Below are positions 13,989 to 29,212 of a stretch of 34,327 nt of DNA, piece by piece. The translations under genes were made by a program, and so were the position numbers. Each line of letters opens with the position of its first letter. The stretch's first letter is position 1. Below the pieces are notes generated by a model. That model was not told where the DNA came from. It did no database searches and was given only the letters and a program-made list of their open reading frames with translations. Origin of the DNA: a virus; the IMG/VR virus record IMGVR_UViG_3300042546_000360, positions 1 to 34,327 of that record; one strand, given 5' to 3'.

Positions 13989-15485
13989 ATGAATTTTGAA
14001 TTACCTAAATTAAGGAAAATAACTAATAGGCCAAAGAAGAAAAAAATACTACTTCTTTCGGATGACCTGCGTCTAAATTCAGGTATTGGCGTAATGTCTA
14101 GAGAACTTGTAGTTGGGACAGCAAAACACTTTGATTGGATTCAACTAGGTGCTGCTATAAAAAATCCAGACGCAGGTAAAATAATTGATGTTTCCGAAGA
14201 TGTTAATAAAGAAATGGGTATTGATGACGCTAGCGTATTGATTTATCCTAATAATGGATATGGAGACCCTCAAAAACTAAGAGAAATTATTTCTAGAGAA
14301 TCGCCTGATGCAATATTGCATTTTACAGATCCTCGTTTTTGGGAGTGGTTATACGACATGGAAAGAGAAATTAGAACATCTATTCCATTAATGTATTATA
14401 ATATATGGGATGATTTACCATACCCTCATTGGAATGCAGAATTTTATGCATCATGTGATTTTATATTTAACATTTCTAAACAGACTCATAATTTAGTTAA
14501 TATAGTATTAGAAGAAAATGAGTATAAGACACATGACTTAGATTGTGGAATGCCTGAAAACTTTTCAAATGATACAACATATACCGCTTATATCCCGCAT
14601 GGTATAAACAATAAGCACATTTATAAAATATCAGAGAAAAGCGAAGTATTTGAAGAATATACAAAGTATATATCCGAATTTAAAAAGGAAACTCCTACCG
14701 ATTTTCTAGTCTTCTGGAATAACAGAAATATCAGAAGAAAACAACCAGGAGATGTTATTCTCGCTTTTAGTAAATTCTGTGAGCTTCTAAGAGATGAGAA
14801 CAAAGCTAGTAGATGTGTCTTGGTTATGCACACCGACCCTATTGATGGAAACGGAACAGATTTAATAGCCACAGTAAAAGCCATAAATCCAATAGGAAAA
14901 GTTATCTTTTCGGATAAAAAGATAGATACTAAGACTTTAAATTTTTGGTATAATTTCGCTGATGTTGTTGTTAACATAGCATCTAACGAAGGTTTCGGAT
15001 TATCCGGTGCTGAAGCCATAATGGCCGGAACGCCTATCATAAACAATGTAACCGGTGGTCTACAAGATCAATGCGGATTTGTTGACAGCAAAGGAAATCA
15101 CATGAAGTTCACAAAAGAGTTCCCTACAAATCATTCGGGGGTACTTAGAAATCATGGAGAATGGGCTTATCCAGTATTTCCTAGCAATAGATCTTTACAA
15201 GGTTCCCCGGCAACTCCGTACATCTTTGACGATAGAGTTTCTTTTGAGGATGTAGCTGTAGCCCTTTTACATTGGTACAATATTCCTAGAACAGAAAGAA
15301 AAGCTTTAGGAAGTAAAGGTATAGACTTTGCCTTAAATCCTGAGATAGGTATGTCAGCAGAAGAAATGAGTAATAGATTTATTAAAAACATAGGTATAGC
15401 CTTAGATAACTGGAAGCCTAGATCTAAATTCTCACTTCACAAAATAAAACCAGAAAAAACTAATAAAGCAATAGGAATTTTATGA
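13989..15485 (+). CDS. Glycosyltransferase, GT-B fold (GT4-like)
   Basis: A 498-residue protein. The N-terminal Rossmann half starts KKKILLLSDDLRLNSGIGVMSREL, where GIG is the acceptor-side glycine loop. The C-terminal half holds the family signature SNEGFGLSGAEAIMAGTPII (about 331-350), with the E-x7-E-like nucleotide-sugar-binding motif. NNRNIRRKQPGDVILAF is the usual donor-domain basic segment. No membrane segment or signal peptide is seen, so it is cytoplasmic. It is the first gene of a run of sugar-transfer genes and overlaps the next one by 4 nt. Donor and acceptor cannot be told from sequence. Confidence 0.88.
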   Translation: MNFELPKLRKITNRPKKKKILLLSDDLRLNSGIGVMSRELVVGTAKHFDWIQLGAAIKNPDAGKIIDVSEDVNKEMGIDDASVLIYPNNGYGDPQKLREIISRESPDAILHFTDPRFWEWLYDMEREIRTSIPLMYYNIWDDLPYPHWNAEFYASCDFIFNISKQTHNLVNIVLEENEYKTHDLDCGMPENFSNDTTYTAYIPHGINNKHIYKISEKSEVFEEYTKYISEFKKETPTDFLVFWNNRNIRRKQPGDVILAFSKFCELLRDENKASRCVLVMHTDPIDGNGTDLIATVKAINPIGKVIFSDKKIDTKTLNFWYNFADVVVNIASNEGFGLSGAEAIMAGTPIINNVTGGLQDQCGFVDSKGNHMKFTKEFPTNHSGVLRNHGEWAYPVFPSNRSLQGSPATPYIFDDRVSFEDVAVALLHWYNIPRTERKALGSKGIDFALNPEIGMSAEEMSNRFIKNIGIALDNWKPRSKFSLHKIKPEKTNKAIGIL

Positions 15486-16771
15486 AAAAGAAAGTAACTC
15501 TAGTAGCACCTGTATATACAGCCTCAGGATATGGAGCGCACGGAAGAGATATTGCCTGGGCATTAATTGCATTACAGGACAAGTACGATTTAAAAATTGT
15601 CTCTACAGCATGGGGAAACACTCCGACTAATGCACTAGACAAAAATAATCCAAATGATTTGGAGATTATTAAAAGAATTGTACCTAAAACTGACGCAAAT
15701 GACGATATTTTTATACAACTGACTATTCCTAATGAATTTGTTAGATGTGGGAAATATAATATAGGATTTACTGCTGGAATTGAGACAGACATGTGTGCTC
15801 CTAAATGGATTGAAGGATGTAATAACATGGATATGCTTCTTACAACATCTAAGCATTCTTTGGATGTTATAAACGATTCTGTTTTTGACAAAGTAAACAA
15901 AAATACAAATCAACTCGAAGGAACTCTAAAGCTCAGAGATAGCCTCAGGAAGGAGATTTTATTTGAGGGGGTTGACACGACACTATACACTAATAAAATG
16001 GATCCTGATGAAAATATGGGGATTTTAGAGCATGTCAAGGAAGACTTCTGTTATCTATTTGTAGGACATTGGCTGCAAGGTTCTTTTGGAAATGATAGAA
16101 AGAATGTAGGAGCCATGATAAAAGTATTTTTTGATACCTTTAAACGAATGCCCGCAAACAATAGACCGGCGTTAATATTAAAAACTAGTGGAGGTAAATA
16201 CTCGGTAGGTGATTTAAATGAAATACAATCTAAAATTAGATCTATACTAGACGGGGAAGCTGGACCTAACATCTATGTACTTCATGGAGATTTATCAGAT
16301 GGAGAAATGAATAATCTATACAACGACCCAAAAGTAAAAGCAATGATTTCTTTCACTAAAGGAGAGGGATACGGCAGGCCTTTAGCAGAATTTTCCGTAA
16401 CTGGAAAGCCTATTATCGCTTCTAATTGGTCCGGACAGCTTGACTTCTTACACCCTAAGTATTCTTCACTTCTTCCTGGTAGATTGGAACAAGTAGATAG
16501 ATCTGTAGTAAACGATTGGTTTATTCAGGACGCAAAATGGTTTACCGTAGATTATATGTATTCGGCTGGAGTTATTGCAGATGTTTTTACTAGATATAAA
16601 AAACATAAGGAGAATGCAGAAAAGCAAAGAGTACATACACTAACTCATTTTTCTTTTGAGAAAATGGTAGATAAGTTAGAGGAAATCCTGGATTCTATTG
16701 AAATAAATCAGTCTAGTAATCAACCTAAATTAAATACATTAAAATTACCAAAACTAAAACTAGTAGAATGA
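15482..16771 (+). CDS. Glycosyltransferase, GT-B fold (GT4-like)
   Basis: A 429-residue protein. N-terminus KKVTLVAPVYTASGYGAHGRDIAWAL has the glycine-rich acceptor loop. The C-terminal domain has FTKGEGYGRPLAEFSVTGKPII (about 291-312) and SNWSGQLDFL, the nucleotide-sugar site of GT4 enzymes. It shares its plan with the preceding gene and overlaps it by 4 nt, so the two may act in sequence on one glycan. No membrane anchor is visible. It overlaps the following 155-aa gene by 4 nt (ATGA). Confidence 0.87.
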   Translation: MKKKVTLVAPVYTASGYGAHGRDIAWALIALQDKYDLKIVSTAWGNTPTNALDKNNPNDLEIIKRIVPKTDANDDIFIQLTIPNEFVRCGKYNIGFTAGIETDMCAPKWIEGCNNMDMLLTTSKHSLDVINDSVFDKVNKNTNQLEGTLKLRDSLRKEILFEGVDTTLYTNKMDPDENMGILEHVKEDFCYLFVGHWLQGSFGNDRKNVGAMIKVFFDTFKRMPANNRPALILKTSGGKYSVGDLNEIQSKIRSILDGEAGPNIYVLHGDLSDGEMNNLYNDPKVKAMISFTKGEGYGRPLAEFSVTGKPIIASNWSGQLDFLHPKYSSLLPGRLEQVDRSVVNDWFIQDAKWFTVDYMYSAGVIADVFTRYKKHKENAEKQRVHTLTHFSFEKMVDKLEEILDSIEINQSSNQPKLNTLKLPKLKLVE

Positions 16772-17235
16772 TTAGCGAAACATTAGAAGAGAAATCTCCT
16801 ATTACAGGGAAAGACGAAGTTATTGTTGAACTTACTGACTCTGGAATTCTTACCAAATTATGTATGGGCAGCGGCTACTATACGGACTCAAGTCTTGTTC
16901 TTGGCTCGGATAATCAGATTCAGTATGAGTCGACGCTGCCCCGGATTTGTATCGACAAGCGGCACATTGACGTGGACCATTGCGTTTGGTACCCTTTTAT
17001 ATTCTCATTGGACAAGGCGGTTATTTTTCCGGACGAGGGTGAGAATAGGAAATTAGTATGGAAAGTTTGTGCTATTGTGGATTTTACTAAGGATGATGTA
17101 GAGTCTTACCCAAATGCAGAGATTCAACGTAAAGTAGATGTGGATAACTCTATTGAATTTGACGCGAACGGCTTTGCTTTGGCCTTTGAGAAACTATATG
17201 AATTAAACGCTCCAAAATACAGAGAAATTGGATAA
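16768..17235 (+). CDS. Hypothetical phage protein with a GC-rich internal patch
   Basis: A 155-residue protein that I cannot assign. It begins with a negatively charged segment (EKSPITGKDEVIVELTDSG) and has an alpha/beta core with Cys at about 32, 61, 72 and 101, none in CxxC form. The sequence GSGYYTDSSL and the FPDEGENRKLVWKVCAIVDF strand resemble small conserved proteins of T4-like marine phages, but this is a weak recollection. Bases 16861-17040 are markedly more GC-rich than both flanks and use codons such as CTG, CCC and CGG that are rare elsewhere here. It is wedged between glycosyltransferase genes in one overlapping operon. Confidence 0.75.
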   Translation: MISETLEEKSPITGKDEVIVELTDSGILTKLCMGSGYYTDSSLVLGSDNQIQYESTLPRICIDKRHIDVDHCVWYPFIFSLDKAVIFPDEGENRKLVWKVCAIVDFTKDDVESYPNAEIQRKVDVDNSIEFDANGFALAFEKLYELNAPKYREIG

Positions 17236-17998
17236 CATATTTATTTCCTACTGTGTTACTGCTTGCAATGAGAACGAGGAATTATTTGTATTACTTTCCC
17301 AGTTAGAAGGCGTTTTGGGAATAGATACGGAAATTATAGTACAGACAGATTCCTCCAAGGTAACTAAAGATGTTCTGCATGTAATTAATAATCATGACAT
17401 CTCGGATTCTATAAAGCATGTAAATTTTCCATTGAACGGAGATTTTGCTACATTTAAAAACAATTTATTCAATCATGCAAGAGGAGAATGGATTTTTCAA
17501 ATTGATGCAGATGAATTGTTGAATCAATATTTGCTTTATAATTTAAGAGAATTGTTGGAGATTAATGAAAACATGGAGATGATTGCAGTTCCTCGGGTAA
17601 ACATAGTAGAAGGTATTACACAGGATTGGATTAATCAATGGAAATGGAATATAGGTAAACAGAATAATGCTATGGGTTCTACTACGGAGCCTATAAGCAT
17701 TTACAGTGACTTCTATAAGGTTCTTGAGACGAATAATCTAATTAAAGAAGATTATAAGGTAAACGATAAAGGAGATAGTAGGATTGTTGTTTATCATAAG
17801 CCTATTATTAATTTTCCGGATTATCAAACTAGGATATATAGGAACAAGGATAGTATTAGATTTAAGAATAAAGTACATGAAGTAATTACAGGGTATTCAC
17901 ATTACTCTGCTATTCCTAGTGAGTGGAATTGGTGCTTATTACATGTTAAGGATATTAATAAGCAGATAAGTCAAAATGAAATGTATTCTAAATTATAA
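17228..17998 (+). CDS. Glycosyltransferase, GT2-like (GT-A fold), TTG start
   Basis: A 256-residue protein beginning FISYCVTACNENEELFVLLSQL, the first strand and helix of GT2 enzymes, with a TEIIVQTDSS strand and the metal/nucleotide DxD-like motif FQIDADELL (about 92-100). The later part includes a W-x-W region and YRNKDSIRFKNKVHEVI, as in GT2 proteins that act on lipid or protein acceptors. The start is TTG at 17228: the first strand begins at residue 4, no ATG lies close upstream in frame, and TTG overlaps the previous stop (TTGGATAA). Its donor is unknown. Confidence 0.82.
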   Translation: MDNIFISYCVTACNENEELFVLLSQLEGVLGIDTEIIVQTDSSKVTKDVLHVINNHDISDSIKHVNFPLNGDFATFKNNLFNHARGEWIFQIDADELLNQYLLYNLRELLEINENMEMIAVPRVNIVEGITQDWINQWKWNIGKQNNAMGSTTEPISIYSDFYKVLETNNLIKEDYKVNDKGDSRIVVYHKPIINFPDYQTRIYRNKDSIRFKNKVHEVITGYSHYSAIPSEWNWCLLHVKDINKQISQNEMYSKL

Positions 17999-18024
17999 TA
18001 TGATTATTCCTAAATGTTGAACTT

Positions 18025-19065
18025 ATGTTACGTATTAGATTAGTTGATGATACTAAGGGTAGAAATAAAGCTACATATAGAGGATTTTTGATGTATAAAG
18101 ATTTGTTCAAAGATGTAGGAATAGATTTTATTATTGCTGGGGATATAGTAGACAGTTGGGATATAAGCATTTTAGGTGATGAATGTTTTGTTAACCGGCG
18201 GGCGAAGTCTTTACGGGATTCTATTGATTATGGATTAGAAAGATTACATGAGATAGATGGAAGATTCATGCTATATGATGGTTCTGATTCTCCATCTATT
18301 TTAGGATCTTATGATGTATTTGAAAATAGCAATGCAGAAAAATTAATAAAGAATCAAATATATAGTAAAGATGTATATAGCATTCCATCTCCATTGGGCA
18401 AGGAATGGTGGAACATGTATGCCGGCCGGGAGGATAAGGTTTCCTATGATGTAAAAAGATATGATGACATTGTTTTATCTGGTTATAATCTCGGGTATTA
18501 TCATCCACATTATTTGCAATTCGCGAATCATGAAGTAAAAAAGGAACATGATATATTTGCAGTTTATCAAGCGGATCATAAGGAGAATTATGACTTTGGA
18601 ATTCGCAACGATTTATATTATAGCAGACATAGAAAGCGGAGCTTGGACGAGTTGGGTAAATTGGATGGTACCTATAATATCGTTTCTAGCAGGCTTAATC
18701 CTGAAGATTATAGTGTAGCATTGAGTAAGAGTAAATGTGCCATATCTCCTTTTGGCATGGGTGAGATATGTTTTAGAGATTTTGAAACATGGAATATTGG
18801 ATGTATATTGATTAAGCCTTTCATGGATAATGTCATTACTTATCCTAATCCTTACATAGATAGAGAGACTTATTTTGCATGTAATAATAATTGGGATGAT
18901 TTAAATAATCTTATTGATGTTGTATTATCATTGAACAATAATGATGTTAAAGATATTAATAGTAATGTGAGGAAGACATTGATTGATATGTATTCCCCGC
19001 AGAATTTTGTATTACATTTTTATAATATTTTGGCAAACCTGAATGGAATAACTAAAGAATCATGA
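18025..19065 (+). CDS. Glycosyltransferase-like protein (exostosin/GT-B C-domain type)
   Basis: A 346-residue protein with a conserved C-terminal block ISPFGMGEICFRDFETWNIGCILIKP. In sugar-transferase relatives of exostosin type, this SPxGxGExxxRxxEa...G.IPI segment binds the nucleotide sugar. The N-terminal half is an alpha/beta domain without DxD. Short GC-rich islands occur in the gene (around 18194-18212 and 18421-18432), unlike its AT-rich flanks. It overlaps the next gene by 4 nt, consistent with one operon. Substrate unknown. Confidence 0.75.
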   Translation: MLRIRLVDDTKGRNKATYRGFLMYKDLFKDVGIDFIIAGDIVDSWDISILGDECFVNRRAKSLRDSIDYGLERLHEIDGRFMLYDGSDSPSILGSYDVFENSNAEKLIKNQIYSKDVYSIPSPLGKEWWNMYAGREDKVSYDVKRYDDIVLSGYNLGYYHPHYLQFANHEVKKEHDIFAVYQADHKENYDFGIRNDLYYSRHRKRSLDELGKLDGTYNIVSSRLNPEDYSVALSKSKCAISPFGMGEICFRDFETWNIGCILIKPFMDNVITYPNPYIDRETYFACNNNWDDLNNLIDVVLSLNNNDVKDINSNVRKTLIDMYSPQNFVLHFYNILANLNGITKES

Positions 19066-20321
19066 ACAAATTTATAGAGATTTTAAGGTCATGGGGAATC
19101 CAATTAAACCCCAACGAAAAACAAAGTAAATTAGCGGAGGCTCGTATCGCAGTTTGCGATACCTGCGAACACAAAAAGACATCCCCAACCATTCATTGTG
19201 GTGTATGTGGATGTTTATTAAAGAGTAAGATATTCTCTCCGGTGGAAAACGCTTGCCCGGAAGGAAAATGGGCTGAAATAGATAAGAGTATGTCAAAGGA
19301 AATCCAAGAATTAGTGAATCAAATACCTGAGTACAATCCTCCACCGGTTCCTGTTTTAGAGCGCACTCCATCAGATAGATTGAAATTTATTTGCGCACAA
19401 CCGGCTACCTCATACTATGCTTGGCAGGTAGAAGTTATGATTAAAAACTTCTTAGAAATGGGCGTAGACCCTTCTTCCATTAACATTGTTTGCGCACTTG
19501 ATGAGACGAACACGATTCCTAATTTATGGTTTAAGCTCATTATGAAATACAATTCGGTAAAATACTACTTTTACCCGGATACAAGACAGTCTAAAAATTA
19601 CGTCTCTTCGATAAGACCTAATATTTTAAAGCAGCACTGGGAAAGAAATCCTGACTTAGTTAACGATGTTATATTCTACCATGATTGTGACATTGTATTT
19701 ACTAGACCTATAAATCAATGGATTAGCGATGATATGATACAGGATGGTAATTGGTATGGTTCTGATTGTAATTCATATCTTTCTCACGATTATATAGATA
19801 GTAAAGGAATTGATGTACTTAATTCCGTCTGCTCTATAGCAAATATACCTCAAGAAAAGCTATTAGAGAATAATTACAATAATATAGGAGCACAATACCT
19901 GCTAAAATATATCACTCTTCATTTCTGGCAGGATGTAGAAAGAGATTCAGAGAATTTATTTAGAGATATCACAGCAATTAATAGCTTAAAAAAGCAAGAA
20001 AATCCTAGTTATAACGAACTTCAAATATGGTGTGCGGATATGTGGGCAATATTATTTAACGGATGGAAAATGAACGCTAGCACAATTGTGCATGGTAACT
20101 TATCTTTTTCTTGGGCAACTGATGACGAAAATTCATGGTACCGAAACAATATTTTTCATAACGCCGGAGTAGTTGAAGGAAATCCGGAATATTTCTGTAA
20201 GGCTAATTATATAGATAAATTACCTTATAACGAAGAGGACTCTTATATTTCTGGTACAGCAGGTAAAAAATACTGGGAATTGGTTCAACAAACAGGCAAA
20301 GATTCTTGTTTACTAGAGTAA
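19062..20321 (+). CDS. Zinc-finger-glycosyltransferase fusion
   Basis: A 419-residue protein with two parts. Residues about 30-70 hold CDTCEHKK...HCGVCGCLL...CPEGKW, a metal-binding pattern seen in stand-alone small phage proteins (DUF6171-like, from memory). After a Pro-rich linker (YNPPPVPVLERTP) comes a nucleotide-sugar transferase domain: FICAQPATSYYAWQVEVM, then the DxD-type motif FYHDCDIVFT (about 205-214), and ELQIWCADMWAILFNGW, close to GT8/GT-A proteins. The metal-finger could dock the enzyme to a virion or DNA-bound partner; that is inference. The start ATG overlaps the previous stop by 4 nt. A 131-nt gap follows before the next gene. Confidence 0.8.
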   Translation: MNKFIEILRSWGIQLNPNEKQSKLAEARIAVCDTCEHKKTSPTIHCGVCGCLLKSKIFSPVENACPEGKWAEIDKSMSKEIQELVNQIPEYNPPPVPVLERTPSDRLKFICAQPATSYYAWQVEVMIKNFLEMGVDPSSINIVCALDETNTIPNLWFKLIMKYNSVKYYFYPDTRQSKNYVSSIRPNILKQHWERNPDLVNDVIFYHDCDIVFTRPINQWISDDMIQDGNWYGSDCNSYLSHDYIDSKGIDVLNSVCSIANIPQEKLLENNYNNIGAQYLLKYITLHFWQDVERDSENLFRDITAINSLKKQENPSYNELQIWCADMWAILFNGWKMNASTIVHGNLSFSWATDDENSWYRNNIFHNAGVVEGNPEYFCKANYIDKLPYNEEDSYISGTAGKKYWELVQQTGKDSCLLE

Positions 20322-20356
20322 TGTTATTTTTCTTTTGTCATATAACTATTATATAT

Positions 20357-20371
20357 TAATTAGTTAATAAT
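20357..20371 (+). repeat. 15-mer shared with the polA 3' inverted repeat
   Basis: The sequence TAATTAGTTAATAAT here is the exact reverse complement of 12717-12731. Both copies lie in intergenic gaps, each of them among the few gaps longer than 50 nt in this window. Being almost purely A/T, chance similarity cannot be excluded. Function unknown; a regulator-binding site is one possibility. Confidence 0.4.
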
Positions 20372-20373
20372 CT

Positions 20374-20441
20374 AGAATCGGTAGTTTAAGTAAAACAACA
20401 AAGTTATTTGAAGATGATGGAAAGCCATCCCGATTTTTTTT
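20374..20441 (+). ncRNA. Candidate structured RNA with terminator-like end
   Basis: An outer helix pairs 20374-20381 (AGAATCGG) with 20430-20437 (CCGATTTT; one G-U pair). It encloses a hairpin GATGG-AAAG-CCATC at 20416-20429 that stacks directly on the outer helix, and a weaker hairpin GTTT...AAAC at 20384-20396. An 8-T run (20434-20441) ends it, like an intrinsic terminator. It fills most of the gap before the HNH gene. It could be a small RNA, an attenuator for the HNH gene, or remains of an intron-like element. It is not a tRNA: no T-arm or anticodon arm is seen. Confidence 0.4.
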
Positions 20442-20452
20442 AAGTCTATCCT

Positions 20453-20950
20453 ATGGAGATTCGTGAAAATATGGATTTAAAACCTTTACCCGGCGAGGTA
20501 TGGAGACCTTTTCCAAATTATGAAGATTGGTATCAAGTATCTAATCTAGGTAGAGTAAAAAGGATGGAAAGATTATGCGTACAAAAAAGAAAAAAGGAAG
20601 ATGGTTCCGAGTATAATTACTCAACATACACATTAGGCGAATCTATTCTCGCTCAATCTTTTACAACAGCTGGGTATTTAATGATTAGATTTTCCTACCC
20701 AATTAAGGAGACCGGTACTGTAGCTAGATTTAATATGGCTATGCACAGAGCAGTCGCCATGGCTTTTATTCCAAACCCTAATAATCACCCACAAGTAAAT
20801 CACATAGATGGAGAAAAGACAAATAATACTGTCTCCAATTTAGAGTGGTGTAATAATTCTAGAAATCAAATACATAGAAATTATATCTTAGAAAAAAAAT
20901 CTAAGAGTAAATACTTAGGCTATTTGATGAGAAATAAAAACAAATTATAG
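20453..20950 (+). CDS. HNH homing endonuclease (NUMOD4-HNH)
   Basis: A 165-residue protein with the classic two-part layout. An NUMOD4 DNA-binding motif is at about 14-38 (GEVWRPFPNYEDWYQVSNLG, then RVKR). An HNH_3-type catalytic region is at about 97-135 (MHRAVAMAFIPNPNNHPQVNHIDG, then NNTVSNLEWC). The basic tail follows. Free-standing enzymes of this type spread between phages by cutting alleles lacking them. It sits in the glycosyltransferase operon, 3 nt before the next gene and after a candidate RNA structure, so it probably inserted between two sugar-transferase genes. Start at 20453 chosen; the in-frame ATG at 20471 is also possible. Confidence 0.9.
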   Translation: MEIRENMDLKPLPGEVWRPFPNYEDWYQVSNLGRVKRMERLCVQKRKKEDGSEYNYSTYTLGESILAQSFTTAGYLMIRFSYPIKETGTVARFNMAMHRAVAMAFIPNPNNHPQVNHIDGEKTNNTVSNLEWCNNSRNQIHRNYILEKKSKSKYLGYLMRNKNKL

Positions 20951-20953
20951 ATT

Positions 20954-21760
20954 ATGCAAAATGTTGTTTATTGGATTGGTGTCAAGAACAAAGACCCTCA
21001 CATGAATGATAAACATGGCGGATTTAGTTATCTTGATGTATCGAGAAAAACATGGGAATGGTGGTGCCAAAAAAATAATGTGGTTTTTGTACCTTACGAA
21101 TTACCGGATTATAATCCAGAAAAACCTGGAACAAAAGTTACTTGGCAGAGGTGGTTTGATATGAAAAGAGTTATATCCGACAAAGGGGTTACTCCTAATT
21201 GGATATGGGCAGTTGACGGGTCTACGATGATACGATGGGACGCCCCTGCTCCTTGGAATCAACAAGAACTTAATCCGGAAATTGTTTATGGTCACAGATC
21301 TCTAGAAAATCTATATTGGATAAATGAAGGAATACAAGGGTATAAAGATTTATTCTCTGTAGTTTTTGATTTGAAGAAATATATATGCACCGGTAATGTT
21401 ATCCTTAATGCTAAAAATTACGGCTTCCTATCTGACTTAGAAATCTTTTTTAAAGATAAGAACAAGGAAATTATGTTCTTAGAGAATGAAAAGATAAAAA
21501 GAGGAACAGACCAACCTGTTTTTAATTACTTCTTACAGGACAATAACATTCCTTTTGATGTTCATACACTTAATCCTGCCTATATGCTTACGCATCTAAA
21601 TAGATTTAATTGGATGAGTCATAATTGGCAAACAGGAAATAAGGATCCGTTTTTTATTAAATACGGATGGTTATGGATGTTCAGCGGATTTCCAACTAGA
21701 GGAGATAGATATGAATTAATGGCAAAAACATGGGAGCTAGTAAAAAAATATTATGAGTAA
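20954..21760 (+). CDS. Glycosyltransferase-like protein (GT8-related), DxD altered
   Basis: A 268-residue protein related to GT8-type nucleotide-sugar transferases and to the next gene. Common points: an N-terminal KTWEWWCQKNNVVFV segment, an acidic position WAVDGSTMI (about 85-93), ILNAKNYGF and the helix GTDQPVFNYFL (about 183-193). At the usual DxD the sequence is DGS, so the second Asp is lost. TGNVILNAKN and HLNRFNWMSH match the acceptor side. It could be a weak or altered enzyme, or a non-catalytic partner of its neighbour. It overlaps the next start by 8 nt. Confidence 0.75.
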   Translation: MQNVVYWIGVKNKDPHMNDKHGGFSYLDVSRKTWEWWCQKNNVVFVPYELPDYNPEKPGTKVTWQRWFDMKRVISDKGVTPNWIWAVDGSTMIRWDAPAPWNQQELNPEIVYGHRSLENLYWINEGIQGYKDLFSVVFDLKKYICTGNVILNAKNYGFLSDLEIFFKDKNKEIMFLENEKIKRGTDQPVFNYFLQDNNIPFDVHTLNPAYMLTHLNRFNWMSHNWQTGNKDPFFIKYGWLWMFSGFPTRGDRYELMAKTWELVKKYYE

Positions 21761-22493
21761 AGATATAGTTGTTCAAATAGCGATAGATAAATCTGAAAGA
21801 TCCGCTAACCAGGGATATTCGATAAGCTCAAAATCCTGGAAAAAGTGGTGTGACGCAAATAACGTAGAATTATTTTCTATATCTTCCGAAGTTGTTTCTG
21901 ATTTAGGATTCCAGTGGAATAAAATATTTATCCTAAACATACTAGACATCGAAGGAATTGATTACAATCGAGTTTTATATGTAGATTCTGATACTATAGT
22001 ACATCCTAAAATGCCCTACATATTTGATTTGGTAGGAGACAAGTTCGGAGTAGTCAGAAATTTCGGATGTATGGATTGGGTATGCAGGAGTATTGAAAAT
22101 TGTTCTGATGTTCTGTTTAATAAATCTGTATCGGTAAACCCGTTTCGTTACTTTAATTCCGGGGTTATGATATTCAATAAGTCTCATAAAAAATTCTTTG
22201 AGGCTGTAAAAGATTTTTACGCAGAGAATAAGGGTAAACTAGAAGACTTTCAATCCCTTGGGGTGGGTAAAGATCAACCTATTTTAAATTATTTGACGGA
22301 AATACACAACATAGAAAAAGTGTATCTTCCTTACGAATACAACATGCAGGATATGAATAGATTTGAAGTTCTTACTCCGGATATGCTGCACACTAATTTT
22401 GGCTGGATTTATCATTTTAATGGCGGAGTTAAACCGACTCCCGGTGAATGGATGCAAGAAACTTATAATTTTCTAAATAACAAGTATGACTAA
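21753..22493 (+). CDS. Glycosyltransferase, GT8-like (GT-A fold)
   Basis: A 246-residue protein. The N-terminal strand/helix is IVVQIAIDKSERSANQGYSI...SWKKWCDANNVELF. The DxD metal motif is intact: VLYVDSDTIVHP (about 74-85). FNSGVMIFNK (about 134-143) and GKDQPILNYL (about 172-181) are the characteristic GT8 segments. LHTNFGWIYHFNGG gives the conserved His near the C-terminus. It is likely a metal-dependent transferase using a UDP-sugar. The preceding gene appears to be a tandem paralogue with an altered DxD. It overlaps both neighbours by 8 nt. Confidence 0.85.
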   Translation: MSKDIVVQIAIDKSERSANQGYSISSKSWKKWCDANNVELFSISSEVVSDLGFQWNKIFILNILDIEGIDYNRVLYVDSDTIVHPKMPYIFDLVGDKFGVVRNFGCMDWVCRSIENCSDVLFNKSVSVNPFRYFNSGVMIFNKSHKKFFEAVKDFYAENKGKLEDFQSLGVGKDQPILNYLTEIHNIEKVYLPYEYNMQDMNRFEVLTPDMLHTNFGWIYHFNGGVKPTPGEWMQETYNFLNNKYD

Positions 22494-23523
22494 GTTAGAT
22501 TACAAATATGTTATAGGCACCAATGTTATGTTTTACGAGATAGATATGTTACCCTATCTGATTAATAGCATAATTGACTCTGTAAAAAATATAGAAAACC
22601 AGGAGAATATTTACATAGATTTACTATTAAATACTTCTGATTCCTTTGAAATATGTGAGAGTAAACAGATATTAACTGAGATAACATGGAAATTCATGCA
22701 AATAATCAGTTCATTAAAAGAAAAAACAAACTGTAATATAGTTCAAACTGATTTACCTAAAGATACAGAGGAGCCTTATACAATGGTAAATTATCGAAGA
22801 GACTTAAATTATAGATATGCTAACAAGGTAGATTGGGTTATTTGGGGAGAGACCGACTGCTTGGTGCCTCATTGTGCTTTTAATGTCCTAGACAAAATAA
22901 AAAAATCAGCTATTCCTCATAATGTCTTTAGATACATTGCTACTTTTGCAGACAGAAAAATGTGGGATTCTTCTTGGGAACCTTTAGAACATCCTGAATT
23001 TACAAATCTACAATACTACGAGAAATCAGACCCTAGATGTTTTACCGAAAAACATTCTATACGATATGTCATGACTAAAGAAGAAATGGATGAAATAAAT
23101 AAAAGATATGAGACATCTGAAAATATAGACATATTATATCATCCTAAATTTGATGGAAGTCTTTTATGTATAAGCTCTGAATTAATAAAAGCTGGAGCGA
23201 ATATTCCATTAGGATTCTGGGGCTTAAGTGGGGAGGATACTTCTTTTATGCACGAATGCATGAAAGTTATGGACAAACAATATGTGCAGTTTGTAATAAA
23301 AGATATACTTAAAGTACATAATAGGGAACACCCGGAAAAAAGAAAATATGCGTTATCTGTATTCGGAAAAACAACTAGCACTCAGGAAAAGAAAGGAGAT
23401 TGGTATAACATTGTAAGAGATTTGAATAAAGACAATCTAAATAAATTATACGGAAATAGTAAACAGGATAGATTAAATACTTATCAAGATTTTTTAAATA
23501 AAATGAAAGAACATGGCATCTGA
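22486..23523 (+). CDS. Glycosyltransferase-like protein (GT2/GT-A type)
   Basis: A 345-residue protein opening with an extended beta-alpha unit (KYVIGTNVMFYEIDMLPYLINSI) typical of GT2-like folds. An acidic motif WVIWGETDCLVP (about 118-129) is in the DxD position. Later GFWGLSGEDTSFMHECM (about 243-259) matches the ED-type catalytic base segment of inverting enzymes, in which the Glu-Asp pair follows a G-x-S/G-x loop. The C-terminus is lysine-rich. No membrane segment. It overlaps the next gene by 11 nt. Assignment to the GT-A superfamily is reasonable; the substrate cannot be read. Confidence 0.75.
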   Translation: MTKLDYKYVIGTNVMFYEIDMLPYLINSIIDSVKNIENQENIYIDLLLNTSDSFEICESKQILTEITWKFMQIISSLKEKTNCNIVQTDLPKDTEEPYTMVNYRRDLNYRYANKVDWVIWGETDCLVPHCAFNVLDKIKKSAIPHNVFRYIATFADRKMWDSSWEPLEHPEFTNLQYYEKSDPRCFTEKHSIRYVMTKEEMDEINKRYETSENIDILYHPKFDGSLLCISSELIKAGANIPLGFWGLSGEDTSFMHECMKVMDKQYVQFVIKDILKVHNREHPEKRKYALSVFGKTTSTQEKKGDWYNIVRDLNKDNLNKLYGNSKQDRLNTYQDFLNKMKEHGI

Positions 23524-24430
23524 TGATATGAAAAAAACTTTAAAAGATTTAGAGAACAGTCTTAAGAAAATAAAAATACACGAAAAGAATATAGGTAAGA
23601 TTGTCAAAGATATTTCTAAATCGGAGAAGGCTTTTAAGAAATTAAATTCAGTCAGTGATTTTAAGGTAGATAAAAATTCTTATGTATTCCCCACCGGGTT
23701 AGTATCTTATAAGAGAGTAACTGACGAGGATTTTTCAGGATTTTTCGGATCCTCTGAATCAAATGATAATTTGACTAGGAGAAAGGCCAAGAAATTAACT
23801 GATAAAAAATTTATGGACAAAAAAACAGAGAGAGAATATAGACTATTAGCTTACATGACTGGTATACCTCCTGACACTCCTGTATCAGATATAAAAAAAG
23901 TTATAATTGAGAAAAAAAACAACGGTAAAACAACATTCACTTTTGAGTCTAAGAGATATGATATTGCTAGAGAATATGATTTTAACACGGGAACTTTAAC
24001 CAATAAATTCATAGATATAGCAAATAAAGGAGGTGAAGATATTTCAGGAGCTGGTTTAAATATCTTAGTAAGACAAATTGCTAATCTGAAATCTTTTGGT
24101 AAAATTAGAAAAATAGAAGGAGAGTTTTTAAAAGCAGAAAATCTTTTTGGTTATTATGTATTTTTGAGATACGGGTTTATTCCGGACAGAGTCGCTCAGA
24201 GCAATTATAGAGACGTAATGGATGAGTATAATAGCCTTTATCCTAATGACAATGTAAAAAAAATAGAAGATTTTTTAAAGTCGGAAACCGGAAGAAAATT
24301 TTGGAAGGAAAAAGGAGGTGATTGGGATGGTCATTTTGATTTGTCAGATAACTCTTATAGCATGAAAGTACTAGAAGACTATGTTAAAAATAGAATTGAC
24401 AAAGATTTGTTCAACTTAACATTTAAATAA
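23513..24430 (+). CDS. Hypothetical protein with coiled-coil N-terminus
   Basis: A 305-residue basic protein that I do not recognise. Residues 1-50 form a lysine-rich coiled coil (MKKTLKDLENSLKKIKIHEKNIGKIVK). A middle region follows with FTFESKRYDIAREYDF. The C-terminal half includes GAGLNILVRQIANLKSFGKIRKIEGEF and a closing block GRKFWKEKGGDWDGHFDLSDNSYSMKVLEDYV, which has the look of an acetyltransferase-like or capsid-associated domain found in some phages (weak recollection). It interrupts the sugar-transfer genes and overlaps the previous gene by 11 nt (ATGGCATCTGA), so it is co-translated with them. Confidence 0.78.
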   Translation: MASDDMKKTLKDLENSLKKIKIHEKNIGKIVKDISKSEKAFKKLNSVSDFKVDKNSYVFPTGLVSYKRVTDEDFSGFFGSSESNDNLTRRKAKKLTDKKFMDKKTEREYRLLAYMTGIPPDTPVSDIKKVIIEKKNNGKTTFTFESKRYDIAREYDFNTGTLTNKFIDIANKGGEDISGAGLNILVRQIANLKSFGKIRKIEGEFLKAENLFGYYVFLRYGFIPDRVAQSNYRDVMDEYNSLYPNDNVKKIEDFLKSETGRKFWKEKGGDWDGHFDLSDNSYSMKVLEDYVKNRIDKDLFNLTFK

Positions 24431-24432
24431 CC

Positions 24433-24687
24433 ATGGAAGAAAAATTACAACTAGTACAAAGAACTTTAAGAGATCTTGTAAGGTTTAATACTGATAAAGA
24501 AGACTTGAATTTAGATGTCGCGTTTATATTAGCTTCAAATGATGATGAATTAATAGACGAAATCAGAAAAATGTATTATCACAGGGATTTCAAATGGGTT
24601 AATGACATAGACAATCAAATAGCAGATATTCTATTTGATATATACGGTTTATTTTTTGACGAAACAACAGACGGCGAAAATATTTAA
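24433..24687 (+). CDS. Small hypothetical acidic protein
   Basis: An 84-residue acidic helical protein (MEEKLQLVQRTLRDLVRFNTDKEDLN, then DDELIDEIRKMYYHRDFKWVNDIDNQIADILFDIYGLF). No motif or membrane segment. The ATG lies 2 nt after the previous stop and the next gene follows after 12 nt, so it belongs to the same transcript. The charge pattern complements that of the basic coiled-coil protein upstream, so they might interact; this is speculation. Confidence 0.72.
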   Translation: MEEKLQLVQRTLRDLVRFNTDKEDLNLDVAFILASNDDELIDEIRKMYYHRDFKWVNDIDNQIADILFDIYGLFFDETTDGENI

Positions 24688-24699
24688 ATAGATTATATT

Positions 24700-25353
24700 A
24701 TGGGTTACATTTTACCGGCCTTTTATCAGGCAATCGCTCAAGAAAAACTTAGGAGACCCTGTCCTAAAATATTTGTGGAGACAGGGACTTTCAAAGGAGG
24801 ATCAGCTCTTACGGCACTTCGATACAACGGAAATTTAGATGACTTTGACAAATGGGTTACAGTAGAACTAGGCGACTCTATTTCCAAAATAGCATCTAAC
24901 CGGTTCAAGAAAGTAGAAGAGAAAGGACAATTCTTCGACGCAATTTTAGCAGACGACACAGAGGATTCCGATTTCAACGATGTATGCTCCTATTTTTCAG
25001 AAAAGCTATGGTTATATAAGAATGACAGCGTATCTTTCTTGCGTGAATTCTTAAAGGACAGAGACGAGCCTATGTGCTTTTGGCTAGACGCTCACGCAGG
25101 TGCCGAAAAATACGCTAGAGGAGAAGATGATGTTCCTCTCCTAAAAGAACTAGAGCTTATCTTTGAAACAGCCCAGGATAACGATTTGATTGCTATTGAC
25201 GACGCTCATTTATTTGGGACTAATCAGGATGGAAAATGCGATTACACAGGTATTACATTAGACACAATCAAAAATCTTTCAAATTCTTATGGATATTCTG
25301 TGTATGCTTCTAGTCCTTATAACATGGAAATGCTAATAATTTTTCAAGAATGA
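24700..25353 (+). CDS. SAM-dependent methyltransferase (FkbM/Methyltransf_24-like)
   Basis: A 217-residue Rossmann methyltransferase. Motif I is FVETGTFKGGSALTAL (about 25-40). An acidic residue ends the second strand (WVTVELGDS, about 48-56). CFWLDAHAGAE (about 126-136) and LIAIDDAHLFG (about 164-174) mark the later strands; these fit enzymes that methylate sugars or small molecules. It lies between glycosyltransferase genes, so a sugar hydroxyl is a likely acceptor. It overlaps the next gene by 4 nt. No membrane or DNA-recognition domain, which argues against a restriction-type DNA methylase. Confidence 0.83.
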   Translation: MGYILPAFYQAIAQEKLRRPCPKIFVETGTFKGGSALTALRYNGNLDDFDKWVTVELGDSISKIASNRFKKVEEKGQFFDAILADDTEDSDFNDVCSYFSEKLWLYKNDSVSFLREFLKDRDEPMCFWLDAHAGAEKYARGEDDVPLLKELELIFETAQDNDLIAIDDAHLFGTNQDGKCDYTGITLDTIKNLSNSYGYSVYASSPYNMEMLIIFQE

Positions 25354-26279
25354 GAATTTTAATTATACATCAGCCGTATCCCATGGGTAATTATAAGTTA
25401 TCGGAAGCATTGGGAAAAAAATTACATGAGAAAGGACATGAAGTTATTTTATTGCATCAGTTGAACATGTCTCAAATTGATGCTAAAAATGCAGAAGAAT
25501 ATAAAAATAGCATTGATGAGATAGATCCTGATGTCATTTATTATGAGATGTTAGATGCAGCTACATTCGACATAATTAAAAATGTAAAATGTAGAAATAG
25601 AATATTATGTGCAACATCTAATGGCATTTTAGGATATGAAGGCATTGTAAAAGGATGGGGAGTTTATTACGATAAGATAATCACCAATTCTAAAAAAATG
25701 TATGATGATTTATTTACTAATGTTTGCGCAGAGCATTTTGAATATTACTTCCTGGCTATTGATGATTCTGAATTAGTTTACAATCCTCAATATGATAAAA
25801 AGAGTGTATTTCTAGGAATGGGATTCAATAGGCTTACAGATGATTCATACAAGTTAGAAAGGGATATATTTTTCTCGGAGCAAAATGATGTAATATCTAT
25901 TTATGGTAATGGCTGGAATAATCATAAGAATTGGGTAGAAATGTTGCCGCCAAATAATATAGGGTCATTATATAAATCTGCAAAAAGTGCTGTTGCTATT
26001 ATAGGTAAAGGCCAAAGAGAATTAGGCATGATAAATAATAGATATTCCGAAATCGCTTTCTCAAAATGTCCTATTATTACTTATCCTTATGATATTGAGT
26101 TTTTTGGAGCAGCTAGCTATATGAACTTTGCATCATCTCCTTCCGAGTATCATAAAGTTGCTTCTGATATATATAGAAATCCGGATAAATATCATTATAA
26201 GTGTAACCTTTTCCGAGATTTTATTGTTAAACAAGATAACATATTTTACGAAAAACTAACAAGATTATTTTATGTATAA
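25350..26279 (+). CDS. Glycosyltransferase, GT-B fold (CgeB-like)
   Basis: A 309-residue protein. Its N-terminus MRILIIHQPYPMGNYKLSEALGKKLHEKGHEVILL is a Rossmann start. IDPDVIYYEML and RNRILCATSNGI follow. The C-terminal domain has AIIGKGQRELGMINNRYSEIAFSKCPIITYP (about 215-245), matching the family in which a R-x-x-E/A-x-A-x-G/K-x-P segment binds the nucleotide. It is smaller than the GT4 enzymes upstream. Cytoplasmic; no signal. It overlaps both methyltransferase genes by 4-8 nt, which strengthens the idea that glycosylation and methylation act on one product. Confidence 0.8.
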   Translation: MRILIIHQPYPMGNYKLSEALGKKLHEKGHEVILLHQLNMSQIDAKNAEEYKNSIDEIDPDVIYYEMLDAATFDIIKNVKCRNRILCATSNGILGYEGIVKGWGVYYDKIITNSKKMYDDLFTNVCAEHFEYYFLAIDDSELVYNPQYDKKSVFLGMGFNRLTDDSYKLERDIFFSEQNDVISIYGNGWNNHKNWVEMLPPNNIGSLYKSAKSAVAIIGKGQRELGMINNRYSEIAFSKCPIITYPYDIEFFGAASYMNFASSPSEYHKVASDIYRNPDKYHYKCNLFRDFIVKQDNIFYEKLTRLFYV

Positions 26280-26859
26280 CTACGAAGAAATCCTACAAGG
26301 AATACCGGACAAAAAAGAGAACAAGAACACGACTTCTCATAAATTTAAAAAAGATTTACTAGAGTTCTTCTCTGATAAGCCAATTAAAACTTGTTTAGAA
26401 ATAGGTGCTAATTGGGGATATACAACTAGAGTATTATCCTATATTGCTGAAAAGGTTTATGCTATAGACCATTCTGATGATAATATCAAAAAAGTAATTG
26501 AAAATAATAGAGGTAGAAAAAATATATCATGTATAGTTGGAAATGCTTACTCTAACATGACCTACATGACTATAACCGATGAGATAGATTTATGTTTTAT
26601 TGATTGCGTACATGATTATTCAAATGTAAAAGAAGATATAGAAAGATGTCTTAGAATGAAGAGAGAAGACAAAGATTTATATATTGCATTTGATGATTAT
26701 GGACATCCCACTGCAAAAGGAGTAAAGAGAGCAGTGGATGAAACGATTGATTTTAAAAGAATGGAAATTGTTAAGCATATTGGACATGAGGCCGGCTATA
26801 ATGTTTTTAATAGTGTTATTTTAGCGGACAGCGAGGGAGTAATTTGTAAAGTTCTATAA
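26272..26859 (+). CDS. SAM-dependent methyltransferase
   Basis: A 195-residue methyltransferase. Motif I is CLEIGANWGYTTRVLS (about 40-55), motif II acidic residue YAIDHSDDN (about 62-70), followed by ISCIVGNAYS and LCFIDCVHDYSNVKEDI (about 107-123) and AFDDYGHPTAKGVKRAV (about 140-156). It resembles Methyltransf_24-type small-molecule or sugar methylases more than DNA methylases: no DPPY/NPPY motif or target-recognition domain. It is the second such enzyme in the glycosyltransferase run. The gene ends 3 nt before the next start. Confidence 0.83.
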   Translation: MYNYEEILQGIPDKKENKNTTSHKFKKDLLEFFSDKPIKTCLEIGANWGYTTRVLSYIAEKVYAIDHSDDNIKKVIENNRGRKNISCIVGNAYSNMTYMTITDEIDLCFIDCVHDYSNVKEDIERCLRMKREDKDLYIAFDDYGHPTAKGVKRAVDETIDFKRMEIVKHIGHEAGYNVFNSVILADSEGVICKVL

Positions 26860-26862
26860 TAT

Positions 26863-27861
26863 ATGAAAATAGCTATAATATCGGAAATTGGTAATTTTGT
26901 CAAATACCCTAGAGACTTCCATAACGCAAGAACTGATGTCGCATGGTCAATTGCTTTGGATGCACTAAACGTTCCTTCTAATACGCAGTTAATAAAGCAA
27001 TATATAGAGAGTACTCCATCTTTTAAAAAGGTAGATTTAGCTATTATTATTCCGGGTAAAAAAGATCCTTTCTTAGAAATAGAGTTTATTAAGGAATACT
27101 TTGCTAAGAAAGTGTGTATGATGCAAGAAGGTCCCAACTGGTACTGGCAGGACTATGACGTAGAAACTCAAATAAATTTCTATAACGCGCTTAGAACTTG
27201 TGATTTTCTACTTTGTCATAATTCATCCGATTATAAATACTACAAGGGAATTACTAATTTAGAATGTCTAGTCATGCCGTCTCTAATGATTGAAGATACT
27301 GTTAAACATATAGTATCTAAGAAATACGAAGCAGAAGGTATTGTAATTGGCGGTAATTCCTGTTCTTGGTATGGCGGAATGGATTCTTTTCTAACGGCTC
27401 TGAGCGGTAGGAAATCTTTCTTAAGAACTGAATCTGAAATTCCAATATTTGCTCCTTCAATGGGAAGAAAGAAGGAAGAGGAAGATTTAATTCCGGATAT
27501 CAACCATCTACCTTACATGGACTGGACTTATTTTATCGAAACACTAGCAGATAAGGCTAAGATTGGTATTCACTTGATGAGAACTCATGCCGCCGGTACA
27601 TTTGCATTGAATTGCTCATATCTAGGCATTCCCTGTATTGGCTACCGAGGCTTAGATACTCAAGAATACCTTCATCCATATACTACCGTAGAACTAGGAG
27701 ATGTTAAGGCCGCCGGGGAGATGGTTAAAAAATTATCAGACCCTACATTCTATAACACATGCTCGGAGGAGACTTTGTTCTTATACAAGGAGAATTACCA
27801 CGAAGATGTATTTAAAAAACGTTTTATAAACAAACTTAATAATCTAGTAAATGAAAATTAG
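26863..27861 (+). CDS. Glycosyltransferase-like protein (GT-B)
   Basis: A 332-residue two-domain alpha/beta protein. N-terminal IAIISEIGNFVKYPRDFHNARTDVAWSIAL resembles GT-B acceptor domains. CDFLLCHNSSDYKYY is the usual linker between halves, seen in glycogen synthase-like folds. The C-terminal half has IGIHLMRTHAAGTFALNC and LGIPCIGYRGLDTQEYL (about 237-270), where the sugar nucleotide binds. No signature is strong enough for a specific family. It overlaps the next gene by 11 nt. Likely a cytoplasmic glycosyltransferase. Confidence 0.75.
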   Translation: MKIAIISEIGNFVKYPRDFHNARTDVAWSIALDALNVPSNTQLIKQYIESTPSFKKVDLAIIIPGKKDPFLEIEFIKEYFAKKVCMMQEGPNWYWQDYDVETQINFYNALRTCDFLLCHNSSDYKYYKGITNLECLVMPSLMIEDTVKHIVSKKYEAEGIVIGGNSCSWYGGMDSFLTALSGRKSFLRTESEIPIFAPSMGRKKEEEDLIPDINHLPYMDWTYFIETLADKAKIGIHLMRTHAAGTFALNCSYLGIPCIGYRGLDTQEYLHPYTTVELGDVKAAGEMVKKLSDPTFYNTCSEETLFLYKENYHEDVFKKRFINKLNNLVNEN

Positions 27862-29212
27862 TTTTATTGTTCCCGGAAGAAATAACTTAAAGTATTTCAA
27901 ATGGTCGTATGATTCCATTATGAAAAATAAAGGAAATCATGAAGTGGAAATCTGTTTTGCTGACGATGCCTCCACTGATGGTACATGGGAGTGGGTTTAC
28001 AGCGAATCTCTAGTAAATCCAATGTTAAAAATTATGCGGAATGAAGGAGATACAAGATTAGGTCACACTATATTATATGATGCTTTAATTAGAAGATCCT
28101 TACATGATATATGCATTATATGGCATTGCGACATGTATTTAGCTCCAGGAGCATTGGACGCTATTGAGAAAAACATGGTAGATAAGAAAACTGTTGTCTC
28201 ACTTACTAGAGTAGAACCTCCATTACATCCTCCGGGACATGAGAAGATAACGTCTGATTTAGGTACCGAGCCTGAAACATTCAAGGAGGATTTGTTTCTA
28301 AAATTAGCCGAAAGTTATGTAAAAAAGAAGAAACCAATAACTAACGGTGTCTTTGCTCCATGGGCTTTTTATAAAGAAGAATTTTTAAGCATTGGTGGAC
28401 ATGATTCCCTATTCTATGTTCAATCAAAAGAAGATTCTGACATTTGGAATAGATTAATGTTAAATGGCGCAACATTTGTACAGACATGGGAAGGATTTGT
28501 TTATCACATGACATGTAGAGGATCAAGATTTAATCCAACTATCACACAAGTTGGTAAAAATTCGGATGAATGGGAGAAGCAGAACATCATATCTACAAGA
28601 AATTTCATTAGGAAATGGGGAGGAATGCCACTTCAAAATGAATATCATGCAATATCTCCTAATAAAAAATATAATATTGGAATCATTGTCGACATGTCTT
28701 CTGAAACAAATCAACCAACCGATGAAGAGTTTATAGATTTTATTGGATTCTTAGAAATTTTTTCTGATTCTTTGCATATTGTAGGAGATAAAAAATACAG
28801 AGACTTAATTAAGTTTTATATAGATAAAGAACAGGCAAATACTTTATATTACTTAGCTGATAGACTTTGGGGGTACAACTATAAATATACTCCTGTAAAT
28901 CAAATAGTGTTAGATAATAGTATAGTTATTAGCATGGAATGGGATAAGATTAAAGTTAATGAGGTATTCGATTTCCTACAAAAATTTCCATTTATTATAG
29001 AAAATTATGCTCCTGGGATGTATGAAAGTAATATTGGTACAATACATATTCAAAATGACAAATCTATTTCAAAAACTTATGAGAAGGATTTAATAAAACT
29101 AGATAATCTCTACCAATTAAGAGAGTATAAAGAAATCTATCCGGAATATTTTGATAGATATAGACCTGTTTTAGACTTTTTGGAAATGGAAAAATTAAAT
29201 AATAACTTATAA
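27851..29212 (+). CDS. Glycosyltransferase, GT2-like, with extra C-terminal domain
   Basis: A 453-residue protein. The first 270 residues are a GT-A catalytic domain: ISFIVPGRNNLKYFKWSYDSI, CFADDASTDGTWEWV (about 36-50), the DxD-like HCDMYLAPGAL (about 92-102), and SKEDSDIWNRLMLNG (about 193-207) with the catalytic ED pair. A further about 170 residues form an alpha/beta segment (NIGIIVDMSSETNQPTDEEF onward) with no recognised motif, perhaps a second domain. It is the last gene of the sugar-transfer run, and the next gene starts after 14 nt. Confidence 0.87.
   Translation: MKISFIVPGRNNLKYFKWSYDSIMKNKGNHEVEICFADDASTDGTWEWVYSESLVNPMLKIMRNEGDTRLGHTILYDALIRRSLHDICIIWHCDMYLAPGALDAIEKNMVDKKTVVSLTRVEPPLHPPGHEKITSDLGTEPETFKEDLFLKLAESYVKKKKPITNGVFAPWAFYKEEFLSIGGHDSLFYVQSKEDSDIWNRLMLNGATFVQTWEGFVYHMTCRGSRFNPTITQVGKNSDEWEKQNIISTRNFIRKWGGMPLQNEYHAISPNKKYNIGIIVDMSSETNQPTDEEFIDFIGFLEIFSDSLHIVGDKKYRDLIKFYIDKEQANTLYYLADRLWGYNYKYTPVNQIVLDNSIVISMEWDKIKVNEVFDFLQKFPFIIENYAPGMYESNIGTIHIQNDKSISKTYEKDLIKLDNLYQLREYKEIYPEYFDRYRPVLDFLEMEKLNNNL

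Follow-up and report, generated by a model that had tools for sequence, protein, structure and literature searches.

What do the many glycosyltransferases (GTs) encoded at positions 13989–29212 of IMG/VR virus record IMGVR_UViG_3300042546_000360 build, and on which acceptor? The record, 34,327 bases long and probably a fragment, was analyzed over its whole length and is called the window below; its open reading frames (ORFs) are named by their start positions (e.g., w13989). Within the locus every ORF lies on the plus strand, mostly with short overlaps. The initial annotation had counted ten GTs and two methyltransferases here. The run is real, with 11 GT candidates (nine supported, two tentative) and one clear methyltransferase, the second being tentative. 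It is no chance arrangement, because its gene order is kept in three relatives and its genes are under purifying selection. Comparison with its relatives shows the locus to be one of the alleles of an island, widespread among viruses, that has a constant left end and a core exchanged in apparently cassette-like fashion.

Constant island start and diverse core

We ran a profile search with one gene of the locus, GT-B2, and found relatives in at least 549 viral stretches; we retained the top 80, of which 70 were new loci. The start of the island proved constant. In the window it comprises two GT4-type GTs, GT-B1 (13989–15485) and GT-B2 (15482–16771), a small conserved protein termed Z (16768–17235), and a GT-A family 2 enzyme termed GT2a (17228–17998), with a RecB-like PD-(D/E)XK exonuclease gene (13017–13970, plus strand) as constant left neighbor. 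GT-B1 was found just upstream of GT-B2 in all 70 new loci, and a nuclease homolog lay upstream in 63 of the 65 loci with more than 3 kb of upstream sequence. A Z homolog followed within 1.5 kb downstream of GT-B2 in 56/62 loci long enough, and GT2a was present in 50/51.

The core was taken as the ORFs of at least 120 aa within 9 kb behind GT-B2, to which 60 of the 70 loci contributed. ORFs whose best window match was Z or GT2a were removed; Z homologs recognizable only through Flavobacterium phage immuto or the G008 lineage (see below) were kept, which raises core sharing. The resulting 432 core ORFs fell into 146 families, 86 of them singletons. Among a random 150 of the 294 non-redundant core proteins, Pfam matches were to Epimerase (14), GT2 (11), Methyltransf_24 (11), DegT (9), Polysacc_synt_2 (8), FkbM (5), GT11 (3), NTP_transferase (3), NeuB (2) and RmlC (2); these counts are not exclusive, as several families may match in one protein, and of the 88 families matched the top 25 were listed. 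The initial annotation had suggested a defined multi-sugar product, and the nucleotide-sugar genes of these sister islands fit such a structure.

Exchange of the core was measured in 24 pairs, not independent of each other, drawn from 12 loci whose GT-B2 proteins were 85–99% identical. Each side had at least five core and four upstream ORFs, and pairs with a GT-B2 identity of 99% or more were excluded. On average, the two members of a pair had 0.97 of their upstream genes in common (0.89 if similar identity was required), as against 0.28 of their core genes (0.16 under that requirement); counted at similar identity, the upstream share was the larger in 24/24 pairs. Two of the 22 pairs listed individually shared at least 0.75 of their core families. 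Three pairs with 100% identical GT-B2 shared the whole core, and the contrast was also seen at lower GT-B2 identity. In every pair the core was thus shared less than the near-identical flank, here the upstream one, and this contrast is the signature of serotype loci. Bacterial O-antigen and capsule loci likewise have a constant flank, an exchanged core and an overlapping enzyme set; the island differs from them in lacking matches to the flippase, polymerase/ligase and lipid-carrier transferase families searched.

Several properties of these data temper the serotype reading. The upstream comparison set consists mostly of replication genes, with the nuclease and GT-B1, which are conserved anyway. 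Any accessory region varies, so the contrast is not specific by itself; the reading gains its specificity from the sugar content of the core. The 9-kb span can overrun short islands, and its ORFs were called mechanically. The Pfam tally covers families that were matched and does not give the share of proteins without one. A terminal-type GT2, which closes the locus in the window (GT2z, 27851–29212), was within reach in 18 of the 36 loci with more than 9 kb of downstream sequence.

Close relatives and named phages

Three relatives, G001, G002 and G004, were listed gene by gene. All have the window's gene order, including a homing endonuclease gene of HNH type, at per-gene protein identities of about 58–100%; a comparison of gene order in relatives, proposed with the initial annotation as a check, thus found the order of the locus kept. 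Ratios of nonsynonymous to synonymous divergence (dN/dS) for locus genes were 0.035–0.29 against G002 and G004 wherever dS was computable (it was saturated against G002 for three locus genes), and 0.02–0.14 for flanking genes. Against G001, the nearest relative listed, w18025 gave a dN/dS of 0.63, at a dS of only 0.02.

A few genes depart from the divergence of the rest. Relative to G001, w23513 is 73% identical with a dS of 1.33, and its two neighbors are 99% identical with dS of 0.08 and 0.12; w26863 has a dS of 0.86. The remaining locus genes range from 0.01 to 0.12, and the HNH gene is at 0.31. Against G002 and G004, w18025 has a dS of 0.18–0.19 and every other locus gene at least 0.62. 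Because of these three outliers, single locus genes also seem to move by recombination, and w23513 and w26863 look to have been exchanged between near-identical genomes. The window lineage keeps one core.

The left part of the window holds replication and nucleotide genes, among them genes for a gp32-like single-stranded DNA-binding protein and, by homology to annotated immuto genes, for a RecA-like protein, a 5'-3' exonuclease, DnaB, NrdB/NrdA and DNA polymerase A. G004 encodes homologs of T4-type head, sheath and baseplate proteins, with identities to immuto of 53% (major capsid), 48% (portal), 47% (sheath) and 55% (terminase). The shared replication gene order, and the T4-type head and sheath of this near relative, place the window lineage among Immutovirus-like T4-type myoviruses. 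Elsewhere G004 encodes one sugar epimerase.

Two further G004 proteins were noted in passing. One (G004:C1:66926–71536, minus strand) is a 1536-aa collagen-like protein that, read from its sequence, seemingly carries an intein/Hint-like insertion and a tail-chaperone-like end. The other (G004:C1:119876–120574) is a Sulfotransfer_2 protein (PF03567) encoded downstream of relatives of immuto tail fibre/spike genes.

The island start was found in three named phages with a recorded host. Immuto (MW353175, 160 kb) shares the constant start with the window (nuclease 39%, GT-B1 48%, GT-B2 46%, Z 23%, GT2a 33%) and, at the right end, a homolog of the terminal GT2 (36%). Its core differs, with two WecE-annotated genes, a 'pilin glycosylation protein', an epimerase, a methyltransferase and a distant w26863 homolog. 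None of the titles or abstract starts on immuto in the open-licence papers searched concerns the island. Microcystis phage Mel-JY01 has the nuclease, an IMP dehydrogenase, a split GT-B1, GT-B2, GT2a, a short core and a distant terminal GT2 (22%), with no recognized Z. In Rhodothermus phage RM378 only the pair was found, GT-B1 at 26% followed by a partial GT-B2 match (31% over 133 residues, E=3e-8); a ribonucleotide reductase gene comes right after, so there is no core. In the G008 lineage the start is 30–62% identical, the last two GTs are 37–47% identical, and the core differs in part.

Viral nature and search for export genes

The initial annotation read the locus as viral rather than as a host O-antigen cluster, and proposed assembly in the cytoplasm with no export machinery. 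Both points held. A hydropathy scan of the 38 window proteins predicted no membrane span, and gave four for the immuto holin as positive control. None of the 432 core ORFs has three or more predicted spans, and 16 have one. Pfam families for the lipid-carrier transferase (PF02397), the Wzx flippase (PF01943) and the Wzy polymerase/ligase (PF04932), the marks of O-antigen, capsule or gtr-type sets, each matched in 0/30 records, many of which are fragments; positive controls matched in 9, 13 and 9 of 14 genomes, respectively. Other flippase families (such as PF13440 and PF14667) were not searched, which, like the fragmentary records, limits what this absence says in favor of assembly without export.

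A pattern-based scan of 84,980 species genomes yielded five GT-B2 relatives, against the at least 549 viral stretches above. All five are in metagenome-assembled genomes, on contigs of 17–26 kb, with Z and GT2a homologs beside GT-B2 in each. In four of the five loci the nuclease is present as well, together with one or more further Mel-JY01 homologs; in three of these four the homologs include clamp-loader-type genes. These five look like mis-binned phage contigs. A host O-antigen cluster was therefore rejected as the nature of the locus; its relatives are viral, and the five cellular matches carry the same phage island.

The acceptor of the glycan

We favor, with modest confidence, the view that the enzymes work in the cytoplasm and build, on virion proteins, a glycan that varies between phages and is often methylated. 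After infection, soluble phage GTs would be made in the cytoplasm. GT-B1 and GT-B2, a pair present in every surveyed locus, would lay down a conserved root, and GT2a would extend it. The sugars that core GTs then add would differ by lineage; the window lineage would draw them mainly from host pools, and sister islands would use nucleotide sugars made by the phage itself. Methyltransferases would decorate the chain, and in many islands the terminal GT2 would close it. With one or more virion proteins as acceptor, sister phages would wear different sugar coats, and a phage would change its coat type by acquiring another core through recombination. The order of sugars, the protein acceptor and the function as a coat are what we infer. 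More specific, and more tentative, is the proposal of phage glycan serotypes, in which a GT-B1/GT-B2 root on a virion protein and a recombined cassette core would yield a strain-specific, often methylated oligosaccharide; we put it at somewhat less than an even chance. Grazers, host lectins or competing phages would perhaps drive such serotypes.

Soluble GTs, as used in phage virion protein glycosylation, are present in the island, with intact motifs counted for GT-B1, GT-B2 and GT2a. An exception to intact GT motifs is w20954, which has D-G-S instead of DxD. A possible link to virion genes comes from w19062 (19062–20321), homologs of which are in 74 phage records. In one of four regions viewed, that of Enterococcus phage phiFL1A, the homolog lies directly 3' of the major tail protein gene. 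These neighborhoods and the mycobacteriophage precedent (below) favor a virion acceptor. The other three regions speak less clearly or point elsewhere. In VPE25 four genes separate the homolog from the major tail gene, within the head-tail block; in MA9V-3 it is among tail-like genes and not adjacent to the major tail gene; in Bacchae it is near recA and a sigma factor gene. To these counterpoints must be added that w19062 is itself a tentative GT, and that the island adjoins replication genes, no computation having connected it with any named virion protein from the same genome.

Phage proteins or DNA, rather than the host surface, had been named as acceptors in the initial annotation. A virion protein now appears the likeliest of these, and DNA has lost ground, because three of the five island-bearing records longer than 140 kb have no ThyA-fold match over the cut-off. 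The host surface deserves consideration all the same. GTs and methyltransferases of the island could act on host lipid-linked lipopolysaccharide or O-chain intermediates, which the host would export, so that superinfection is blocked. Core gene types do resemble those of O-antigen loci, and use of the host's lipid-linked intermediates would make a phage flippase needless, so that the missing flippase counts for less in favor of a virion glycan. We nonetheless consider this route unlikely, given the lack of Wzx, Wzy/ligase and initiating transferase matches (one family each) in the 30 records and of multi-span proteins in the core. On the latter point gtr serotype-conversion sets differ, as they encode membrane proteins themselves. 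G004, with its T4-type head, sheath and baseplate, also likely leads a purely lytic life (lysogeny genes were not searched for). A host-surface role has been proposed for T4-like marine phages with GT-rich variable regions, in passages of PMC7029224.

Hypermodification of DNA, with the GTs building an oligosaccharide on hydroxymethylated pyrimidines of the phage genome, seems to us less probable still. It would suit the position of the island beside replication genes, and DNA modification with diverse glycans by virus GTs is reported (Pyle 2024, as cited elsewhere). PF00303 (ThyA-fold) was matched over its cut-off in 9/30 records; such a match cannot separate a synthase from a hydroxymethylase, and the window is a fragment. 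The island is present in Mel-JY01 (190 kb, titled complete) and G010 (160.8 kb), neither of which gave a PF00303 match at the thresholds applied; in G004 (142.6 kb) the single match is below cut-off (E=0.004), and ThyX is present instead. Immuto already carries annotated 7-deazaguanine genes. Two other profiles were uninformative: Tet_JBP matched in 0/30 records, the control genomes being equally silent, and PF01702 matched in 0/10 records including immuto, which is annotated with DpdA, and is therefore too blunt as a 7-deazaguanine test.

Least probable is a route through collagen-like fibers. Gly-X-Y fibers would be hydroxylated by the PKHD-like 2OG-Fe(II) oxygenase encoded at 33586–34173 and then glycosylated by a GT-A enzyme such as w22486 (22486–23523), as by Mimivirus L230. 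Collagen repeats do occur in relatives G001, G003, G004, G006 and G008, the oxygenase is conserved in the window lineage, and the top Foldseek match of the w22486 model is human collagen galactosyltransferase COLGALT1 (E=1.8e-4). However, that model is confident over only about 140 residues, and VIA places other GT-A enzymes above COLGALT1. Among 29 records, collagen repeats and w22486 occur together in four, each from the window lineage or the G008 lineage. Another four have collagen repeats alone (G025, Mel-JY01, and G006 and G027, in which the contig stops within the island), nine, all contigs shorter than 80 kb, have w22486 alone, and 12 have neither, including island-bearing immuto. We rejected this route for want of consistent co-occurrence.

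Genes of the locus

Four of the GTs, w13989, w17228, w21753 and w27851, match Pfam families over the curated cut-off. GT-B1 (w13989) scores 27.2 bits against the GT4 family PF20706 (cut-off 26), with PF00534 just below its cut-off; an EG-x6-E motif is kept in 68/68 homologs of at least 280 aa. GT-B2 (w15482) matches phrog_2170 (E=3e-7), and PF00534 below cut-off. Its GEG-x6-E (E-x7-E) motif was found in all 70 homologs, and an alternative pattern in 68. GT2a (w17228) matches PF00535 over cut-off and has a D[AS]D motif in all 54 homologs of at least 180 aa; a stricter pattern, tried first, matched none of the 54. Z (w16768), followed through alignment, has no Pfam, PHROG or NCBIfam family, and its homologs in immuto and G008 have no PHROGs family; the immuto homolog has zinc-ribbon-like cysteines. 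The neighboring nuclease was assigned through phrog_69/1218 exonuclease. In two separate lineages GT-B1 is present as two ORFs for the N- and C-terminal halves (L014:8529–9999 in the G008 lineage and L029:17956–19447 in Mel-JY01), which may reflect either a two-subunit enzyme or a frameshift.

The initial annotation had overlooked four genes of the locus: the HNH/NUMOD4 homing endonuclease gene (20453–20950; PF07463 and PF13392 over cut-off, phrog_59) and the non-GT genes at 16768, 23513 and 24433. The core opens with the two tentative GTs. The first, w18025 (18025–19065), is a GT-B-like candidate on the strength of an RXYLT1_C match (E=0.024), with no PDB match by profile search. The second, w19062, has a Cys-rich N-terminus and a possible GT-A-like domain; it matches phrog_4417 (E=4e-60), a family listed with 'unknown function', and its AlphaFold model (pLDDT 41.8) is too poor for use. 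The family, including phiFL1A gp51 and 73 other phage records, may consist of GT-A-type enzymes. Behind the endonuclease gene, w20954 (20954–21760) is a GT8-like GT-A paralog of w21753 (21753–22493), itself a GT8-family GT-A enzyme with DSD (PF01501 over cut-off). Both were aligned with each other and with G008-lineage homologs. The D-G-S that replaces the D-x-D of relatives in w20954 is kept in three aligned orthologs; metal use is possibly altered or lost.

The next gene, w22486, has a predicted GT-A fold over its first ~140 residues (whole-model pLDDT 55.4). All four Foldseek matches at E≤0.001 are GTs, the lower rows being mixed; VIA gave Z up to 10 with GTs, and profile search gave no PDB match. 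Searched by tblastn against a phage collection, w18025, w22486 and w16768 had no match at E≤1e-5. The exchanged allele w23513 (23513–24430) has no assigned role; no relative was found in that collection at E≤1, no PHROG or NCBIfam match, and its sole Pfam match is far below cut-off. The small protein w24433 (24433–24687), also of no assigned role, is conserved in relatives and has no Pfam or PHROG match.

The tentative methyltransferase is w24700 (24700–25353), in which ETGTFKGG and IDDAH stretches are invariant in the alignment; it has a weak partial RlmJ match (E=0.077) and no Pfam family. A GT4-like GT-B enzyme, w25350 (25350–26279), matches PF13524 below cut-off (E=1.7e-4). The clear class I SAM methyltransferase is w26272 (26272–26859), a Methyltransf_24 protein scoring 43.6 bits against PF13578 (cut-off 26.3). 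Near the right end, w26863 (26863–27861) is a GT-B enzyme, assigned from a profile search that weakly matched two GT4-type enzymes of solved structure (E=0.002). In the G008 lineage its homolog (37%) immediately precedes the terminal GT2, and in immuto the homolog (25%) is located within the core. The terminal enzyme itself, GT2z (w27851), matches PF00535 over cut-off.

Relation to known systems

The initial annotation had called this an undescribed system. Its parts are known; its organization, a fixed start with a swapped core, was not found described in titles, abstract starts and passages of the open-licence literature searched on immuto, Mel-JY01, virion glycosylation and phage GT clusters. 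GT-rich variable regions in T4-like aquatic phages have been published, and pelagimyophage GTs read as modifiers of the host O-chain, in the passages of PMC7029224 on these phages. The pelagimyophage host recognition cluster described there is alike in belonging to T4-like phages, in its many GTs, including GT8, in being hypervariable and in having some sugar-synthesis genes. In that account, its GTs are mixed with tail fibre genes or scattered in twos and threes, whereas the present island is a separate one next to the RecB-like nuclease gene, and its GT-B1/GT-B2 start is constant. Virion glycosylation is known from mycobacteriophages Che8, Corndog and Myrna (Freeman 2023, as cited in passages of PMC12363180 and PMC12619734), where phage-encoded GTs act and capsid and tail tube proteins bear the sugar. 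Those passages name single GTs per phage; here there are about 11 in a single island that has a constant start and a swapped core, and the virion acceptor is putative. The closest functional parallel is with the glycogene clusters of Mimiviridae and other giant viruses, where the GTs and sugar methyltransferases that make virion glycans are virus-encoded along with rare-sugar pathways, and where gene content is clade-specific (PMC9614988, PMC10117803). These are viruses of eukaryotes, likened by function and not by homology.

The idea of a virion glycan is directly testable because named phages with recorded hosts carry the island start, namely immuto (Flavobacterium), Mel-JY01 (Microcystis) and RM378 (Rhodothermus). 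Soluble GTs, and enzymes that are likely sugar methyltransferases, can also be drawn from the island, and they seem to need no lipid carrier. If the reading is right, many uncultured phages, judging from the viral stretches with a GT-B2 relative, would be clad in sugars that are specific to the strain and put together by phage enzymes in the cytoplasm. Phage GT islands that are currently interpreted as modifiers of host lipopolysaccharide would have to be reconsidered, and the island would be a phage counterpart of O-antigen variation.

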